From Acidobacteriota bacterium (lineage in GTDB: Bacteria; Acidobacteriota; Terriglobia; Acidiferrales; UBA7541), in contig QHYJ01000165.1 of assembly GCA_003223255.1 (NCBI GenBank), forward strand, positions 23,926 through 87,925: DNA of 64,000 bases, written 5' to 3'. This document shows, piece by piece, positions 23,575 to 40,972 of this stretch (its first letter is position 1; each line of letters starts with the position of its first letter). The notes beneath the pieces were generated by a model. It ran no database searches, had not been told where the DNA came from, and worked only from the letters and a program-made list of their open reading frames with translations. Both the position numbers and the translations under genes were made by a program.

Positions 23575-24111
23575 ATGCTGCCGCTCTATCAGGCACTTTT
23601 GTCCCTCTATCCCGCCGCTTATCGTTGCGAATATGGCGAAGAGATGATGGAAGTTCTCTCGGAAGTACAGGCGGAAATTCGTAAACAGAGCATCCTGGCG
23701 CGGGTACTTTGTGAGATGCGTGAAGCCGGCGGCTTGCTGCATGGCGCGCTGCGAGAACATCTTCGGAGCATCAACGGTCCTTATGATTTGTTTTCACGAA
23801 GGAGGTTTGCGATGCGATCGGAATTCCGGTTTCCGAAAGCCACGGTAGTGCTGATGCTGGTCATCCTGGCCGCGGTGATGTTTACGATTGAAAAGGCCAA
23901 GGCGATATCGGCTTCGATACCCCACGCAAATCCGCCGGTCGGTCCCATCCAGCCGGCGCAAATGGGGATTGTGCCTTCGCTGTTGGTGGCCATGATTAGC
24001 GCCCTTGTGGTTGGCGTGATTGGTTGGGCCATTCTCTACGCGCTGCGACGCTCTGGCGTGCAACAACTTTCGGAAATGAATCCGCCGGCTGGGAATCGCC
24101 CAAGTAAATGA
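23575..24111 (+). CDS. Membrane protein partner of PadR
   Basis: The 178-residue product starts with LYPAAYRCEYGEEMMEVLSE, an N-terminal module also seen at the start of acidobacterial orphan ABC permeases and PadR-linked proteins. Two membrane segments follow (VVLMLVILAAVMFTI and LLVAMISALVVGVIGWAILYAL) and a short tail. Its role is not known. It is presumably the membrane target or effector of the PadR regulator, being only three bases downstream. Another PadR-type effector gene is not adjacent. Confidence 0.65.
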   Translation: MLPLYQALLSLYPAAYRCEYGEEMMEVLSEVQAEIRKQSILARVLCEMREAGGLLHGALREHLRSINGPYDLFSRRRFAMRSEFRFPKATVVLMLVILAAVMFTIEKAKAISASIPHANPPVGPIQPAQMGIVPSLLVAMISALVVGVIGWAILYALRRSGVQQLSEMNPPAGNRPSK

Positions 24112-31768: not shown

Positions 31769-33346
31769 CTATTGCGGCTTGATGGGAGTTTCCGGAGCCG
31801 CCTCCGCGCCTCTAGGTTTTGCGATGGTCGAAAGCGTTTCCACATTGAATGTTCTGTAATCGGAGTAGCGCGTTGAGAAGCTCATCTTGAAACCCTTGAG
31901 CAACAAGACCCGGGCGCCAATGTGAGCTTCCATATAGGTCGGCAGCCATACTTCGTTGTTGATAAAGGCCTGTTCGAAGACAAAGCTGGTTCCCTTTTGT
32001 AAATTGGCGAGCAAACCCCCTGCAATTTTCACGTCGCCAAAGAAGTACGCTTCCAGCCGTGCGACGTCAGGGGCTTTCTCGTCGATCCAAACCACGCCGC
32101 GGAGTTTCTGGACAACTTTTTCTTCCAGCTTGTGCGGCCTGAACTCGGGGATTGGGCTCGAAATCGGAAACCAGGACGTCCTGGCCACGAAAGCGCTCGC
32201 GGCGCGGATTCACGAACTGGCACGCTCGCAGTAAGACCTCAATTCCCGGCTCATCTCTGTCCTCGTTCTTTCCTTGCTCCTTGGCTTTTTCCTTTTTGGC
32301 TTCCTTTTTGGCCTGCCGCTTCTGATGCTCCGCGATGCGCTTCTGGACGCGTTCGTTTTCTTTTCCTGCTCTTTTCCGCTCAGGGGCTTGCCGTCTTTTT
32401 TCACCAGTGTGGTGATTTCATCGCCGTCCAAATAGAAGAAAGTCGATTCACGCGTCTCGCGCTTCTTCACTCTTCCGTCGCCATCGTATTCGGTTTCTTC
32501 TTCTGTTTCCGTGCCGGCGTAGTTTCCTTGATTTTGTCGATGACCTTCTGATTGTCGTCAATTTCTTTGAAGAGGGCTTTGACGTCTGGCAGTTTGACCT
32601 GGGACTTGATCGGGAAATCGAAAACGCGCTCGCCGATCGTGCCATTGATGATGGCGCGGGTTACAGTAATGTTGTACTTTGCATCGCCGCGGTGCAATTC
32701 GATTTTGTCCGGAAGCTTGACACCCTCCAACGCTCGGTAGTCGTCGCAAAGAATTTCTTCTTCCACACCGCCACGGTAGCAGTTTCTTTCACGATCAGGT
32801 GGCTCTGTTAATCGAAGAATACTTGCCGTTTTGTGTCATTCGTACTGGTCAACTCGAGTTCGAAGGGATCTTTACCGCGGACATGCGCATTGCCCACAAA
32901 GGCTAGCACGATCTTTTCCTTCTTTGGATTCACGAGCCGCGAGTTGTAATCCTGGGCCGCCGCCTCCAGTTGCATGCCATCGGAGCCGACCAATGTTGTG
33001 AGCTCTCCCATCGCATCCCGGTTCCAGGCGGACTTACCGTTGTAGGCTTCAATAAAGTTTTTGATGGCCCACCAGCAATTCCATGTAGTAGCGATTTGGC
33101 ACTTTGCTATCCCGTGTGCAGGTGCCGGATTTTCCGTCGTCCGTGGTAAATGTGCCTTCCAGCGAAAGGGTGCGGATCTTAGACAGTGCGTGGCCGCCGC
33201 CCTCTGCGTTGACATACTATTCCACGATTTTCACCGGCTCTTGGGCGCAAGCAGGGTAGGGCGCGGGAAGGAAGCAAGCAAGGAAACGCTGCGCCTAGGC
33301 CCTAGGAGATGGACTACGTAAAGGCGACGAGACCTAAGTGTTCCCA
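31769..33346 (-). pseudogene. LolA-like outer-membrane lipoprotein-sorting protein, multiply disrupted
   Basis: Pieces in several frames reconstruct one gene. A signal region (RFLACFLPAPYPACAQ) leads to SKIRTLSLEGTF and NRYYMELLVGHQKLY, then YNGKSAWNRDAMGELTTLVG, EKIVLAFVGNAHVRGKDP and RQVFFD. EEEILCDDYRALEGVKLPDKI and VFDFPIKSQVKLPDVKALFKEID follow, then RETRESTFFYLDGDEITTLV, a K/E-rich helix, EVLLRACQFVNPRRERF and EKVVQKLRGVVWIDEKAPDVARLEA. This matches large acidobacterial proteins with a LolA-like fold. It has an in-frame TAG near 33,210, a stop at 32,808 and at least five frameshifts. The coordinates are approximate. Confidence 0.75.
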
Positions 33347-33980: not shown

Positions 33981-35345
33981 TCAATTCGAGGCTTTCGGCC
34001 GGTTCAAATACTTCTCATACAAGCGACGGTGTTTGTTTTCCAGCGGAGTGAGCTGGCCTTTGATGAACAAATACTTCACGTCAGTCGTCAATTCCAGTGG
34101 GTCGCCGTTGGTAACGATAAGGTTGGCGATTTTGCCTTGCTCAAGTGTGCCAATCTGGCTCCCTAATCCCAAAATCTGGGCCGGATTAATGGTGACGGAG
34201 CGTAGTGCTTCCTCATAGGAAAGGCCATGTGCGACTGCGTTGGCGGCATTTTGTCCCAGACGGCGCGCGAAGGAGTTATCGAAGCTGGCGATGGCAAATT
34301 TCACGCCGGCCGCCGCTAGTTCGGCGGGCTGCGTAAGTTCGCGGTCGTACGGATCGTCCTCGTCGGGAGGAAAGGAGAGCATGGGACGAAGAACGACGGA
34401 GATATCCTTTGAGCGGAGGACGTCCTTCGCCTTGTAGGCTTCTTCCCCTCCGGCTAGGATCATTTTCAACCGTTGCTTGTCGCAGAATTCGACGGCGTTG
34501 CGAATGTCCCGCGCGCGATTGGCGAACACCAGGACGGGCAATTCGCCGCGAATGACCGGGGCTAGAGCTTCGAGCTTCAGGTCGCGATCATATTTCGAGA
34601 CGGAGCCCTTTTCCATCGCTTGCGCGTAGTGGCGGGCGCGATCCAGCCAATCGGTGAGTTCCTTGACCTGCCTATCGTATTCCTGCTTGGCTTCGGTGTA
34701 CGGTTTTTCCCTGCGCGAGAAGGTGGCGAAGTCAAAAGTTTCAGTTTGGATTTGCGGCCAATTGAGCACCATGGCGGCGCTCTTCTTGATTAGCATTTCA
34801 TCGATGGTCCAGCCAGCCAGATGAATCGCGGAAGCCTGGCCACCGGGCGTTCCCGGGCCGCCGCCAAAGTCAAACCCGCCGCTGGCAGGAACGGCCAGCA
34901 CTTCGGTGATGCCGGAAGCGCGGGTGACGGGAATGTGCTCGCTCGAAGGCGAAACAGCGGTTGCGGCGACGACATCGGGATTGTAGCTCCCGGTTTCCGC
35001 AGAGTCGACGGTGGCGTTGACCGCGCTGATTTCGCTCAGACCCATTTGCGTCACGGCATCGAACAGCCCCGGATAGACTTGCAGCCCTTGGGCGTCAATT
35101 ACTTGCGCGCCAGCGGGAACTTCGACGGCCGCGCCAACCGCAGCAATCTTGCCGTCGCGCATGACCAAAGTTCCGTCTTCAATCGGAGAGCCCGCGAGCG
35201 TGAAGATCTTGGCGTGTGTGATCGCGTAGACGGAAGGCGGCTGCGATTGCGCGCCTGCAGCAGGGGCGGAAAACAAGCAAACAAAACAAAGGAAGTTGAA
35301 GAAGTAAAGGGGCGTGCGGAGACGCGTGGCACTTCTTTTTCTCAC
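33981..35345 (-). CDS. Amidohydrolase-like protein C, metal ligands lost
   Basis: The 454-residue product has a signal peptide (ending SAPAAGA) and the full amidohydrolase scaffold: AKIFTLAGSPIEDGTLVMRDGKIAAVG, YPGLFDAVTQMGLSE, VLVFANRARDIRNAV, SVTINPAQILGLGSQIGTLEQGKIANLIVTNGDPLE. The HxH after PGLID is V98-T-Q100, and the later histidine (VHANR type) is Phe, so a binuclear metal centre cannot form as usual. It is likely non-catalytic or a structural subunit. It overlaps the upstream gene by 4 bases, consistent with translational coupling. It is the last gene of a three-gene secreted amidohydrolase operon. Confidence 0.85.
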   Translation of the reverse strand: MRKRSATRLRTPLYFFNFLCFVCLFSAPAAGAQSQPPSVYAITHAKIFTLAGSPIEDGTLVMRDGKIAAVGAAVEVPAGAQVIDAQGLQVYPGLFDAVTQMGLSEISAVNATVDSAETGSYNPDVVAATAVSPSSEHIPVTRASGITEVLAVPASGGFDFGGGPGTPGGQASAIHLAGWTIDEMLIKKSAAMVLNWPQIQTETFDFATFSRREKPYTEAKQEYDRQVKELTDWLDRARHYAQAMEKGSVSKYDRDLKLEALAPVIRGELPVLVFANRARDIRNAVEFCDKQRLKMILAGGEEAYKAKDVLRSKDISVVLRPMLSFPPDEDDPYDRELTQPAELAAAGVKFAIASFDNSFARRLGQNAANAVAHGLSYEEALRSVTINPAQILGLGSQIGTLEQGKIANLIVTNGDPLELTTDVKYLFIKGQLTPLENKHRRLYEKYLNRPKASN

Positions 35346-36770
35346 CGCACACCTCCTTGAGTGGCCGCCCCTTGGGCGGCCGTGGGAGTTGGAGTGGGTG
35401 CAGGCGGCTTGGGCTTTTCTTCGGGCTTTTTTTCTGGTGCCTTCTTTTCTTCCGGTTTCTTCTCGGCTTGCTTCAGCTTCTCGGTGAGCGCCTTCTTCTC
35501 TTTCTCGATTTCGGCGCGGTTTGCAATATCTTTTTCGCGATCGAAATAGACGCGGCCGTCGATCAGCGTTTTCTGGACCACAGCGTACGCGCTGAGCGGA
35601 TCGTGATTGTAGACTGCCAGGTCGGCATCTTTGCCGACGTCGATGCTTCCGACGCGCTTGTCGATGCCAAGCTGAATCGCCGGATTCAACGTGACCAGTT
35701 TCAGCGCCTCGTCGTGCGAGAGGCTGCCGTACTTCATGCTCTTGGCCGCTTCCTGGTTGAGGTGCGTGGCTTCTTCGGCATCATCCGAATTGATGGAAAC
35801 AATTACGCCGCGACGGGTCATCAGCGCCGCGTTGGACGGGATGGCGTCGTAGGCTTCGACTTTGTAGGCCCACCAGTCGGAAAACGTGGAAGCACCAACG
35901 CCAGCCGACGCGAGCTCATCGGCGACTTTGTACCCTTCGAGGACGTGCTGAAAGGGGCGGACTTTGAAGCCGAATTCCTTGGCCACTCGGAGAAGCATGA
36001 GGATTTCGTCTTCGCGGTAGCAATGCGAGTGCACGTAGCGCTTGCCTTCGAGTACTTCGACAAGGGGCTCGAGTTTCAGATCGCGGCGCGGCGGAATGAG
36101 ATTTTTTTCGCCCGCGGCAACGCGCTTGTTGTAATCGTCCCAAGCCTTCTTGTAATCGCGGGCCTCGCTGAACGCGGCACGAATGGTTTCTTCGACGCCC
36201 ATGCGAGTGGCGGGATAACGCCGAGGCTGGCCGGGAATGCTGAAGTTGGAGCGCTTGGGGTTCTCACCGAGGGCGAACTTGATGCCGGGCATAGCGCCTT
36301 CAAACGGAAGCTTTGAGGCAGGCTGACCCCAGCGGAGCTTGATCACCAAGGTCTGCCCGCCGATGGAATTGGCGGAGCCGTGAAGAATGTTGGCGGAAGT
36401 GACGCCGCCGGCAAGATCGCGATAGATGTCTATGTCGTCGGGATCGAGAACTTCCTCCATATTCACCATCGAGGAAACCGAGACGCTGCCTTCATTGATG
36501 GCCTCAGCGGCAATGTGCGAATGGCAATCGATAATTCCGGGAATCACGAACTGCCGCGAAGCGTCGATGACCTGGGCGCCTGCCGGAGCTTTGATGGATT
36601 GCCCGATTTCGGCGATTTTTCCATCCCTAATAAGGATGGAACCATGCTCGATCGTTCCGTGAGAAACGGTTAGTACGGTAGCGTTTTGAATCAGGATAAC
36701 CGGTGCAGCGTCGGGTGGAGTTGCTGCAGAAACGGAAAAAGGGAGGTAAAGGACGCAAAGGAGTTCTCAT
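35342..36770 (-). pseudogene. Secreted amidohydrolase B with intact active site, frameshift in signal peptide
   Basis: The enzyme body retains the metal residues: IPGIIDCHSHIA (HxH), YVHSHCYREDE, FQHVLEGYK and SINSDDAEEA. The track starts at a GTG at 36547, but the same frame continues upstream with DAAPVILIQNATVLTVSHGTIEHGS to the signal region. The natural ATG at 36770 forms an ATGA overlap with the preceding gene's stop. Within the signal peptide one base change separates MRTPL from VLYLPFSVSAATPPD, so the gene is nearly whole. The C-terminus is a 60-residue Lys/Glu/Pro-rich tail. It is the only chain of the three with a complete metal site. Confidence 0.8.
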
Positions 36771-38455
36771 TGCGCACCTCCGAGGGCGGCCGTGGTAGAT
36801 GCAGCATTACCGGGTTTGACGCCGGTGAAATCGAGCGACATGCCCAGCACGGTGATGGAGCCTTTCAACGAATTGCCGTCAAAGGTGCCGGTGAACATGA
36901 CGTCGGTGGGGCCCTGGTCGAGAACGATGTTGCTGGTGAGGCTGAATTTGTCGGCGCTGAGGTAGCCGCTGATGATGTTGGCGGTGCCACGATGGCTGGT
37001 GATCGTGCCGGAAATCGTGCCGTCCTTGTCCATCATGAGGTCGGCGGTGGATTCTTCAGGGCCTTCCGGGGTGGTGTAGGACAGCTTCCATTTTCCAGTG
37101 ATGTCTCCCTCCGACGGATCCTTGGGTTTCTCGGGTTCGTGCGCTTCAAACAGGCGGCCGTCCACGAAAGCCATTTTGATTTTGGTTTTTTCCCCGAAAA
37201 GATCGCCGTCGGTTACCACGAGATTCGCAATTTTGCCGTTCTCGATGGAGCCCAGGCGGTCGGCCACGCCAAAAATCTCTGCTGCGGAAAGTGTGAACGC
37301 GCGTAGCGCAACATCAGGAGAAAGCCCCGCGTCAATAGACTTCTTGGCTGCCTTGAGAATGTTTTTCGGAGCCGTAATACTGCTAGAATAAAAGGCGAAC
37401 TTCACCCCCGCCTTGGCGAGCGCCGCCGGCGTAGAAGGCGAGCGGTCGCGGAACCGCAGCGTGCGCAGTGATGGCTTGGATTCCGGATCGGCGTCTTTCT
37501 CCGCGTCCGGCCACTTCAAATCAACCAGCACGGGAAGTTTCTTTGCTGCAATTTCCGGAGCGACTTCGTAACCCATCTGGCCGCCGTAAATGGCGCCCTT
37601 GACCTGCCAGCGTTCAATGAGCTCAATCGCGCGGCGGAGCTGCACGGTGTTATTCGCCGGAATGAGGACCAGCGCGTGGTTCTCGAGTGCCTCCGCAAGG
37701 GTCGCTTCGGTGCGGTCATAGCGAGGCCGAGCCACGCCGCGGGGATTCTTTTCGTAAAGGGCCTGTGCCTTTATGCTCCAATCCGTGTCGAGCCAGACCT
37801 GGCGAATATAGGCCAGCACGCCGAGAAGAGAATCCGGGAAGCCGCCGCCAAAGCCCCCGGACGTCTGGAACGAAAGAGGAATGGCAACAGGCGATTTGAC
37901 GACGAGATCCCCGGCACGTTCTCCTGCGAGGTTCAGAACCGCGGCCTCCCCCGGAAAGAAACCGCCTTTCGGAGCGCAAATCACAGTGGTGAAGCCGCCG
38001 TTGCGCCAGCTTTCAATGCGCTTGTCACTGAGATTGACTTCGTCGGCGCCGCTGCGCCAGGGAGTGGAAGCGGGACGATCTTGCGGACCGCGCGCTTGTT
38101 CCTGCGACCGGCGCGGGCCACCGCCTTCCCCGCCGGAAGGTGGCGCAGCGGGAATGCCGACATCGGCAAAGGCATCCACGAGTCCGGGGTAGACGGTCAG
38201 GTCTTTTCCGTCGATCACGCGGGCTTCGGGCGGGATGGCCGCGTCTTTCGCGACCGCGGTGATGATGCCGCGAGAAACGACAATGGTCGCGTCTTCGATA
38301 GGCGGTCCGGAGACGGGCACGACTTTTGCGCCGCGAATGGCGAAGTATTGCGGCTCACCGCCCTGTGCACGAACCAGCGGCAGGCGGACCAGGAGCAATA
38401 AGGAAGTGACCATGCACAGTGCGAACGCACATCTACGGAACAGTTTTAAGCGCAT
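36767..38455 (-). CDS. Amidohydrolase-like protein A with C-terminal beta domain, metal ligands lost
   Basis: The 562-residue protein has a signal peptide (to about residue 30), then an amidohydrolase scaffold: AIRGAKVVPVSGPPIEDATIVV, VYPGLVDAFADVG, FTLSAAEIFGVADRLGSIENGKIANLVVTDGDLFG. The HxH is replaced by F96-A-D98, and no later histidine replaces it, so normal catalysis is unlikely. About 110 C-terminal residues form a separate beta-rich domain (GKWKLSYTTPEG onward) not found in the other two. It is the first gene of the operon, overlapping gene B by ATGA. Confidence 0.85.
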   Translation of the reverse strand: MRLKLFRRCAFALCMVTSLLLLVRLPLVRAQGGEPQYFAIRGAKVVPVSGPPIEDATIVVSRGIITAVAKDAAIPPEARVIDGKDLTVYPGLVDAFADVGIPAAPPSGGEGGGPRRSQEQARGPQDRPASTPWRSGADEVNLSDKRIESWRNGGFTTVICAPKGGFFPGEAAVLNLAGERAGDLVVKSPVAIPLSFQTSGGFGGGFPDSLLGVLAYIRQVWLDTDWSIKAQALYEKNPRGVARPRYDRTEATLAEALENHALVLIPANNTVQLRRAIELIERWQVKGAIYGGQMGYEVAPEIAAKKLPVLVDLKWPDAEKDADPESKPSLRTLRFRDRSPSTPAALAKAGVKFAFYSSSITAPKNILKAAKKSIDAGLSPDVALRAFTLSAAEIFGVADRLGSIENGKIANLVVTDGDLFGEKTKIKMAFVDGRLFEAHEPEKPKDPSEGDITGKWKLSYTTPEGPEESTADLMMDKDGTISGTITSHRGTANIISGYLSADKFSLTSNIVLDQGPTDVMFTGTFDGNSLKGSITVLGMSLDFTGVKPGNAASTTAALGGAQ

Positions 38456-38563: not shown

Positions 38564-40245
38564 CTATGGTTTTTTCTTTTTGAAGAGCCCCGTGAGCGCG
38601 TCGACCGGATTCGCAGGCGCCGCGTTGGGGTTCGCTTGCGACCCCGCACCCGCGGTCGTGCTTCCGGCTCCCATGCAACCCAGTTTCGACTTGAACATGT
38701 CAGCCGCCAGCCTGCCAACATCCGGAACAAATTTGGGATCGGCCGTGGTGCCCTTGATCTGGAATGGGACGCTCAAGCCGCTCTTGCACCCACCGCCGGT
38801 AACTTTGCCCAAAAGACCGCTGAGGCCTCCACCGGTGCCAGCTGATGCGCCGTTGCTCGCGGCTTGCGAACTATTGAGTGTTGCCACCATTTTAAAATCC
38901 AGGTTGTTCTTGGCATCAGCCGTGCCCGCGCCGGTGAGATTGCCGAGCTGTGGAAGAACCGCAATGAAATTGTCGGCCTTCAATCCCTCGGGCGCCATGC
39001 GCACGTCCGACGTGAGTTTGTCGATCAAAAGATCGCTGCCCGTCTTGATTCCCGTAAGGGCAGTAACCTCGGACATTTTCGAGCCAAGATCAAAACCAGC
39101 CAGCTTTCCATGGAACAGGCCGACGTTGCCTGTAATAACGAGCTTGTTCGTGGGACCGGTGATGTTGAGATCGGAATTCAGCGTGCCGGCCGCAAGCGAG
39201 GCGCCTTTAGGCAGATTGATGCCGAGCGCAGGAAGAAATGCCTCCAAATCTTTTGCCGGCATGTCCTTGGCGTCGAGATTGATTTTGACGACAGTCTCCT
39301 CCCCTGAGGTATCGTACGTCCCGCCGAGATGTGCGGCAGCGTTGCCTATTTTCAGAACGGACGGGTTCAGCACTCCTGCGTTTTTGCGGAGATTGTATTT
39401 GGTGCCGAAGTTGATGGTGACGGGAACGCCCGCAGGCGAGCCGCCCGCAACCAGAAGAGCTTTAGAAAGTTTTGCGTCCCCTTTGGTTTCCGCTTGTCCC
39501 CTGCTCGAAGCTACGGTGCCGTCCAAATCGATAATGCCGCCGAGACCCGCCGAGGAATCCAGGAAGCCGGTCGAAGCAAGATTCAACGAGTTAATCGTAA
39601 GCTTGGCATTGAGCGGAGTGAGCGAGGTGTCTTCTTGATCCACCGGGCCGGCCGTGCCCTCGAGTTTGAACTTGCCGCCGTCCGGCAGGACTGCTGTGAC
39701 GGCGACAGGAAACTTCGCAATCATCGAGAAGTCGGAAGCGGTGATATTGAGATCGTCGTAGGTACTGCGCTTTCTGGAGCCCGTCCCGCCTACGATGATC
39801 TTTCCGTTCTTCAGCTCAAGCTTCTTGATCGACAGGTCGGCGGCAGTCGACGTCTTTCCGGCAGGAGCCTGCTTGGCTTGCGCTTTTGCTGCTGAGCCGC
39901 CGAGTGAAGAGAAATTCCACTCCTCGGCAGGATTATGCAACAGCGTGACCTGCGGCGTGTCAATGGTGATGCCCGTAATGTTTAGGGTCTTGGAAAAAAT
40001 CAGCGGCATGAGCTCGACGCCTACTTTCAGAGCTTTGGCGGTGAGAAAAGGCGAAGAGCTGAACTTGGGATCATCGCCAATGGAGAGGTTTTCGGCGGAT
40101 AGCGAGCCACTGAGGAGCGAGAGGCTGAGGTTTCCAAGCTGCACTTTGCGTCCCAGAGCCGCGGAAGCTTTTTCTTCAAGGCGATGAGCACCAGAACGGC
40201 CAAAACACCGACAACAATGAACGCAATGCGGAGTGTACTTCCCAT
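38564..40245 (-). pseudogene. AsmA family protein, one frameshift
   Basis: The gene begins at ATG 40245 with AGGAGG upstream and an N-terminal membrane anchor (LRIAFIVVGVLAVLVLIA). It continues in the next frame with LEEKASAALGRKVQLGNLSLSLLSGSLSAENLSIGDDP and a long beta-rich AsmA-like domain: TGITIDTPQVTLL, FPVAVTAVLPDGGKFKLEG, SLAAGTLNSDLNITGPTNKLVITGNVGLF. The tail is Ala/Pro-rich and basic. AsmA-like proteins span the inner membrane and periplasm and affect outer-membrane lipid transport or assembly. The frames join near 40,178: one C missing in a CCC run explains it. Confidence 0.82.
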
Positions 40246-40438
40246 AAGGGACCTCCTGTGGGGAAGGGATAGTTTGGACGGAGAAACTGCATAATAACAT
40301 AGCCGGCGTTACCGCTTCAGTGATTCGCTCGGAGGTTTTGGACGCTACGGAGCAGTGTACAGCCCTGAGAGAGAATGGATATTCGTGACTCTCGTGCATC
40401 TCCTTGTGGAGTTGCGTTATCCTAAAGCGGTGAACTTT

Positions 40439-40972
40439 ATGACCAATTTGATTGCCCATTCGCCGGCACACGGTTTTCGTGTGAAAAGGCAAGTCGCGTC
40501 ACCGCGTCGCGTCCATAAGAGGGTCGAAAGAGGCATCACTCTTCTCGAGCTGATTATCGCGACGTCCATCCTTTTGGTACTTGCCACTGCCGCCTTGCCG
40601 GTGGTTCGCATGACCGTGGTCAGGACCAAGGAAGCGCAGCTTCATAAAGCCTTGCGCGAGATTCGCGACGCCATCGATCGTTACAAGGACTATTCAGATC
40701 GCAACCTCATTCGTGTGGAAGTGGGCAGCGAAGGGTATCCCCCGGACTTGGAAACGCTTGTGAAAGGGGTTCAGATCGGAGCGGGTTCCGACCGCAAAGT
40801 CCGCTTCTTGCGCCGCATCCCCGTGGACCCTATGACAGGGCGGGCGGAGTGGAATTTGCAGTCCGTCCAAGACGATCCGGATTCCACCTCCGGGGGCGGT
40901 AATAATGTTTTCTACGTGCACTCCAAGTCCCAAGGCACAGCGCTCGACGGAACTAAGTACGCGGACTGGTAA
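40439..40972 (+). CDS. Type II secretion/type IV pilus-like pseudopilin
   Basis: From the ATG at 40439 (about 177 residues) the protein has a basic leader followed by a prepilin cleavage site and helix: VERG then ITLLELIIATSILLVLATAALPV with Glu at position 5. The C-terminal half ends NNVFYVHSKSQGTALDGTKYADW, the pattern of GspG-type pseudopilins. It should be processed by prepilin peptidase and join a pseudopilus in the inner membrane. No other gsp or pil gene lies beside it. The track start at 40355 is possible but adds 28 residues of uncertain character. Confidence 0.85.
   Translation: MTNLIAHSPAHGFRVKRQVASPRRVHKRVERGITLLELIIATSILLVLATAALPVVRMTVVRTKEAQLHKALREIRDAIDRYKDYSDRNLIRVEVGSEGYPPDLETLVKGVQIGAGSDRKVRFLRRIPVDPMTGRAEWNLQSVQDDPDSTSGGGNNVFYVHSKSQGTALDGTKYADW

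Follow-up and report, generated by a model that had tools for sequence, protein, structure and literature searches.

The question raised by this locus is why three consecutive genes encode proteins of one enzyme fold, of which a single one has kept the ligands of the catalytic metals. The genes lie in a window of 64,000 nucleotides (the whole stretch of DNA that was analyzed: positions 23,926 to 87,925 of contig QHYJ01000165.1, assembly GCA_003223255.1) from an Acidobacteriota bacterium. A preliminary description had read them as a secreted amidohydrolase operon in which two ligand-less members support or regulate the active one. The reading that we favor, with a probability of about three in four, is that the exported metallohydrolase B forms a hetero-complex with the pseudoenzyme C, which was later joined by A.

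Gene organization and fold

The three open reading frames follow one another on the minus strand and are transcribed in the order A (38455-36767), B (36766-35342) and C (35345-33981). The relevant features are the following:

36767-38455, minus strand: gene A, exported-type ligand-less amidohydrolase paralogue of 562 amino acids with a C-terminal beta domain (open reading frame, profile, ligand columns)
35342-36770, minus strand: gene B, exported-type amidohydrolase with a complete metal-ligand set (open reading frame, profile, ligand columns)
35342-36766, minus strand: open frame of gene B, 474 codons
33981-35345, minus strand: gene C, exported-type ligand-less amidohydrolase paralogue of 454 amino acids with a GTG start (open reading frame, profile, ligand columns)
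36767-36770, minus strand: ATGA, stop of A overlapping the presumed start of B (the ATG is not in the frame of B here)
36777-36781, minus strand: GGAGG, ribosome-binding-like, ahead of ATG 36770 (sequence)
35342-35345, minus strand: GTGA, stop of B overlapping the start of C (sequence)
35352-35356, minus strand: GGAGG, ribosome-binding-like, ahead of GTG 35345 (sequence)
36515-36523, minus strand: HxH motif of B, H82-S-H84 (P0002 numbering)
38162-38170, minus strand: equivalent residues of A, F96-A-D98
35046-35054, minus strand: equivalent residues of C, V98-T-Q100
36770-37117, minus strand: C-terminal beta domain of A, about residues 447-562 (no Pfam family; no credible or significant solved-structure match)
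35345-35506, minus strand: Lys/Glu/Pro-rich tail of B (its position is that of the low-confidence linker in natural B-C fusions)

All three products scored above the gathering cut-off (25 bits) of Amidohydro_1 (PF01979), with 44.3 (A), 64.2 (B) and 48.4 bits (C), and for each the best solved-structure match was 3ooq, an amidohydrolase of Thermotoga maritima (E-values of 6e-19, 4e-55 and 6e-37, respectively), in agreement with the preliminary assignment of three amidohydrolase-fold genes. Family models searched for a function gave weak matches, far under their cut-offs. As read from the sequence, A and C start with signal-peptide-like stretches and the frame of B starts inside one, and the three proteins would all be exported.

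The preliminary description further had the genes overlapping by four bases each. The overlap stands for B and C (GTGA, preceded by GGAGG); the ATGA between A and B exists as well, also with GGAGG, but it is not a working start of B here. ATG 36770 does not belong to the frame of B, whose earliest in-frame ATG, GTG or TTG is GTG 36547, within the domain, and A, its TGA and B form one frame. That B is without an in-frame start in this assembly is at odds with our reading. B of a near relative (L009) shows 91% identity, and there the ATG of this ATGA does lie in the B frame. ATG 36770 is probably the natural start, and a short indel, either natural or an assembly error, likely explains the shift; this is the simplest account because of the in-frame ATGA of the relative and because the gp19 gene beyond C is split as well. 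The indel would leave the remainder of B, the frame of which is conserved, untouched. The shared frame, which has no other stop than the TGA, would also fit a read-through by which A and B become one chain, like the A-B fusions that are common in relatives. We consider such read-through very improbable, as the junction has a good GGAGG and ATG, B has another frame and its own start in the nearest relatives, short frameshifts occur elsewhere in the region and a shared frame arises by chance in one case out of three.

The gp19 gene encodes a T4-like tail-tube protein (PF06841; 33496-33929, plus strand) and is split over two frames, the halves matching profile positions 2-51 and 55-132. The neighboring stretch 31769-33215 (minus strand) resembles one exported-protein gene that is fragmented into several short frames; two of its pieces had no Pfam match.

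Metal ligands

B carries the sequence PGIIDCHSHI, with the HSH following PGIID as originally described, and has kept the later His, His and Asp; the aligned site reads F-A-D in A and V-T-Q in C, and both lack the later ligands. This division extends to the relatives. In a first set, all 81 B sequences had HxH and the later His, His and Asp, whereas HxH was found in none of 75 A and 76 C sequences, which carry substitutions at the later sites. A wider joint alignment (about 120 loci) showed the set H,H,H,H,D in 121 of 122 B-type copies, the sole exception being a ligand-less paralogue in locus L089 that was scored as B, and in none of the A (0/97) or C (0/118) copies. Thus, in neither alignment did any relative of A or C have all of the ligands. 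In addition, a glutamate (E168, in GEN) was invariant in the 21 B sequences of alignment A1 and is also present in 3ooq, which shares the set H,H,E,H,H,D with B; E168 is a putative ligand, as its spacing to the other ligands recalls the Glu of NagA-type sites. NagA of Escherichia coli is active without HxH, so that a protein lacking just this motif need not be inactive; the case of A and C is stronger because every ligand is missing from both.

The number of columns conserved in at least 90% of the sequences was 127 for B, 52 for C and 38 for A. Since some of those in A and C are polar, the two proteins might be thought to have gained a different, metal-free catalytic activity. This is improbable in our opinion: both have fewer strictly conserved residues than B, no known catalytic arrangement was recognized among these, and every ligand was lost rather than merely one.

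Occurrence of the gene set across genomes

A search of public genomes recovered 80 loci. Within the limits of its contig, each has A ahead of B and C behind it, all on one strand (the contig of L027 stops before C). The synteny on which the preliminary description had hinged was thus conserved in every locus with enough flank. The record titles name Acidobacteria, Gemmatimonadetes, Bacteroidetes, Planctomycetota and Shewanella, next to a few odd ones (Actinomycetota, Betaproteobacteria) that may be mis-binned; the A-B-C set, or B with one ligand-less look-alike, recurs in at least five phyla.

We then determined co-occurrence in samples of three phyla. Among 119 Acidobacteriota genomes (B threshold of 375 bits or more), C was present in 50 of the 50 that have B, and B and C in 40 of the 41 that have A. 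The lone A (G080) adjoins a contig end and was rejected as a case of A without B. In ten genomes B and C occur but A does not, and B has a lower score there; because such lineages exist, A is not generally needed. In one genome (G025) A resides on a different large contig from B-C. B was found in 42 of 80 Bacteroidota genomes and C in the same 42, in two of which (G169 and G185) about 1 Mb of the same contig separates B from C. The apparent occurrence of B without C in G133 was discarded, as the partial B runs into a stretch of N. For the 200 Pseudomonadota genomes, B-type matches were obtained at 17 places in 16 genomes, with a C-type gene adjacent at each of the 17, arranged either as a B-C pair or as an A-B fusion plus C. 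Even for distant B-like genes (250-300 bits) a C-like gene comes next in the loci examined; its HxH site reads, for instance, DAHST or DAHTV, the second His being lost.

Two arrangements were recorded besides. Loci L102-L104, L108, L128 and L161 belong to a more distant paired family of an active B-like and a C-like protein, the latter having kept the first His of HxH and mostly lost the second. Locus L089 (3170-10867, plus strand, genome G006) holds six amidohydrolase domains in a row, HxH-bearing and HxH-less largely alternating, including one two-domain fusion.

Selection and evolutionary history

The dN/dS ratios with respect to seven relatives were 0.07-0.13 (A), 0.04-0.09 (B) and 0.05-0.11 (C), values that are rough as synonymous change is partly near saturation. 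A and C are under purifying selection. Local decay, in which A and C would be functionless pseudogenes or recent duplicates, could be suspected from the frameshifts in the region (at the start of B and in the gp19 gene). It is ruled out for practical purposes by the full-length open frames, the low dN/dS and the absence of the same ligand residues in relatives of at least five phyla.

In a tree of 125 sequences (IQ-TREE, quick mode, so that the branch order involving long rows is less sure), all A sequences grouped together (100) within the clade of ligand-less C, the C proteins of B-C lineages fell outside the A/C split (SH-aLRT 98-99), and B formed the other side. The lineages branch in the same order in the B and the C trees, and A keeps step with both. 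From the nesting of A in C it follows that A would have arisen by duplication of a C that was already ligand-less. The history then reads as a single active enzyme whose duplication gave B, which stayed active, and C, which lost the ligands, after which C was duplicated to A. The preliminary description had spoken of ligand loss in two of the three genes; on the tree A becomes a duplicate of ligand-less C, and the losses are probably one ancient loss. Two independent losses were rejected on the basis of the nesting and the SH-aLRT values of the enclosing branches. In lineages that have only B-C, C keeps remnants of the site, for instance at the positions of the second His, the Glu, the third His and the Asp in L092, and also in L091 and L095, as expected if C descended from an active enzyme.

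Natural fusions and structure models

Fusion of proteins in different pairings is a classical sign that they work together. We found full-length fusions of A-B (42), B-C (15) and A-B-C (1), counts from which the number of independent cases is slightly lower because in a few instances the same contig was reached twice (L048/L110 and L075/L133). Cultured relatives that carry an A-B fusion together with C include Psychroflexus sediminis and a Shewanella. The A-B-C fusion is a single frame of 1419 residues (L105, 2222-6196, minus strand, genome G041).

Two natural fusions were folded with AlphaFold2, both of them from relatives and not chains of the window: a B-C fusion of 888 residues (L046; mean pLDDT 86, pTM 0.86) and an A-B fusion of 883 residues (L056; mean pLDDT 85.8, pTM 0.86). 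In the former the pTM is reached in spite of a disordered linker of 57 residues. Both models resembled 3ooq (TMt 0.87-0.90, aligned over one domain) and, judged on these relatives, the fold is a composite of a beta-sandwich and a TIM-barrel. Freely oriented domains would be expected to yield a pTM of around 0.5, and therefore defined A-B and B-C interfaces are predicted, with the caveat that the predictor readily packs paralogues in the manner of a homodimer.

The beta domain of A (~110 residues) and the tail of B, which had been proposed as contact or surface-binding modules, do exist. A necessary role in contact is not supported, as both are missing from many complete sets. The beta domain is found in about two thirds of the A proteins, fused or unfused, and occurs at the A/B junction in several phyla; the length of the tail varies from 0 to 68 residues between relatives, and its position coincides with the disordered linker of the B-C fusions. 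Neither of the two looks essential in this comparison.

Co-retention and fusion may also reflect consecutive steps or shared regulation, which counts against a hetero-complex. In a rival reading A and C form no complex with B but are exported on their own, as members of one pathway that use the dead enzyme fold to bind the substrate or product of B. A, B and C are indeed all of the exported type and kept together, polar residues that could bind a ligand are conserved in C (E105, D114, E117, R142, D334 and R361), and linkage is lost between B and C in some Bacteroidota and for A in G025. Nevertheless, the fusions in several combinations and the confident inter-domain placement in two fusion models favor contact, and no transporter or other pathway gene was conserved beside A-B-C: the clusters of neighboring genes were limited to a few loci each and none was found across phyla. 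We therefore regard separate binding proteins as unlikely, while granting this explanation more than any of the other alternatives. Upstream of A in the window lies a DUF748 (AsmA-like) gene (38564-40492, minus strand), which adjoins A-B-C in close relatives only.

Comparison with known systems

The closest solved relative of A, B and C by sequence, and of both fusion models by fold, is 3ooq, which differs from them in being a single complete enzyme chain; its structure was solved without a described function, and no paper on it was found in the open-licence literature. In pairs of M16B peptidases the inactive partner has lost the metal-site motif, and the CRMP proteins are not enzymes. Both offer a parallel, as do two other systems: i) in the ATCase of Pseudomonas aeruginosa a pseudo-dihydroorotase (pDHO) without zinc ligands is inactive and yet required for the partner enzyme (PMC7053772), which likewise places a ligand-less subunit of the amidohydrolase superfamily alongside a live enzyme, albeit a cytosolic transcarbamoylase of unrelated fold and not, as here, an exported-type amidohydrolase paralogue; ii) the M16B peptidases TTHA1264/TTHA1265 and SPH2682/SPH2681 are encoded by neighboring paralogous genes and form an active heterodimer (PMC12731061), whereas their fold and family are unrelated, there is just one inactive partner, and the complex of A, B and C is predicted only; iii) in NagA, the N-acetylglucosamine-6-phosphate deacetylase, the opposing subunit of the dimer provides Arg-219 to the active site (PMC6016474), which makes this amidohydrolase dimer a model for a dead partner serving a live one, although NagA is a cytosolic homodimer with both subunits active; and iv) the CRMP or dihydropyrimidinase-related proteins have the amidohydrolase fold and hetero-oligomerize (PMC4051505), but are cytosolic proteins of animals without an active exported partner.

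The inactive paralogues A and C are genetically coupled to the active B, as in the enzyme-pseudoenzyme complexes of ATCase-pDHO and M16B. The principle is already known; what sets this case apart is that the live and dead subunits are all amidohydrolases, are of exported type and number up to three. The open-licence literature yielded no paper describing a secreted amidohydrolase with a ligand-less partner, where absence is unproven as subscription journals mostly fall outside it.

Proposed working of the A-B-C system

We propose that A, B and C constitute one exported enzyme system in which B would be the catalytic subunit and the sole one with a metal site. C, a ligand-less paralogue of ancient origin, would be the partner of B, and A, which was probably copied from C at a later stage, would have entered the B-C pair and may provide most lineages with another dead subunit. 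The B-C pair, and likewise A-B, would most likely be a pseudo-homodimer, the dead subunit replacing the second subunit of an ordinary amidohydrolase dimer, stabilizing B and probably shaping the mouth of its active site or its choice of substrate. By analogy, the residue that the opposing subunit contributes in NagA suggests a concrete route by which a dead partner could matter. What we infer is physical association and its stoichiometry, an influence of A and C on catalysis and a dependence of B on A or C. Of the hetero-complex originally suggested, the maintained ligand-less partners withstood the refuting conditions attached to it and remain (backed by synteny, fusions, purifying selection and the two models with a pTM of 0.86), whereas two separate losses and the accessory parts as necessary contacts are not supported. 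Very probably, then, the ligand-less A and C are working partners of a live B.

Implications for the amidohydrolase family

A wider and more tentative proposition, to which we give slightly less than even odds, is that we are dealing with a family of exported amidohydrolases in at least five phyla that works only as a hetero-complex: B would never occur without C, C would complete or gate the active site of B, and many lineages would add A to yield a three-part enzyme with one active site. Annotation usually proceeds gene by gene, and A and C bear the same 'amidohydrolase' label as enzymes, yet cannot bind the metals. If the proposition is true, thousands of such annotations would be predictably wrong and assays of B alone would fail or mislead. 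The natural series of single enzyme, B-C pair, A-B-C triplet and two- and three-part fusions would then trace the making of an obligate enzyme-pseudoenzyme complex.
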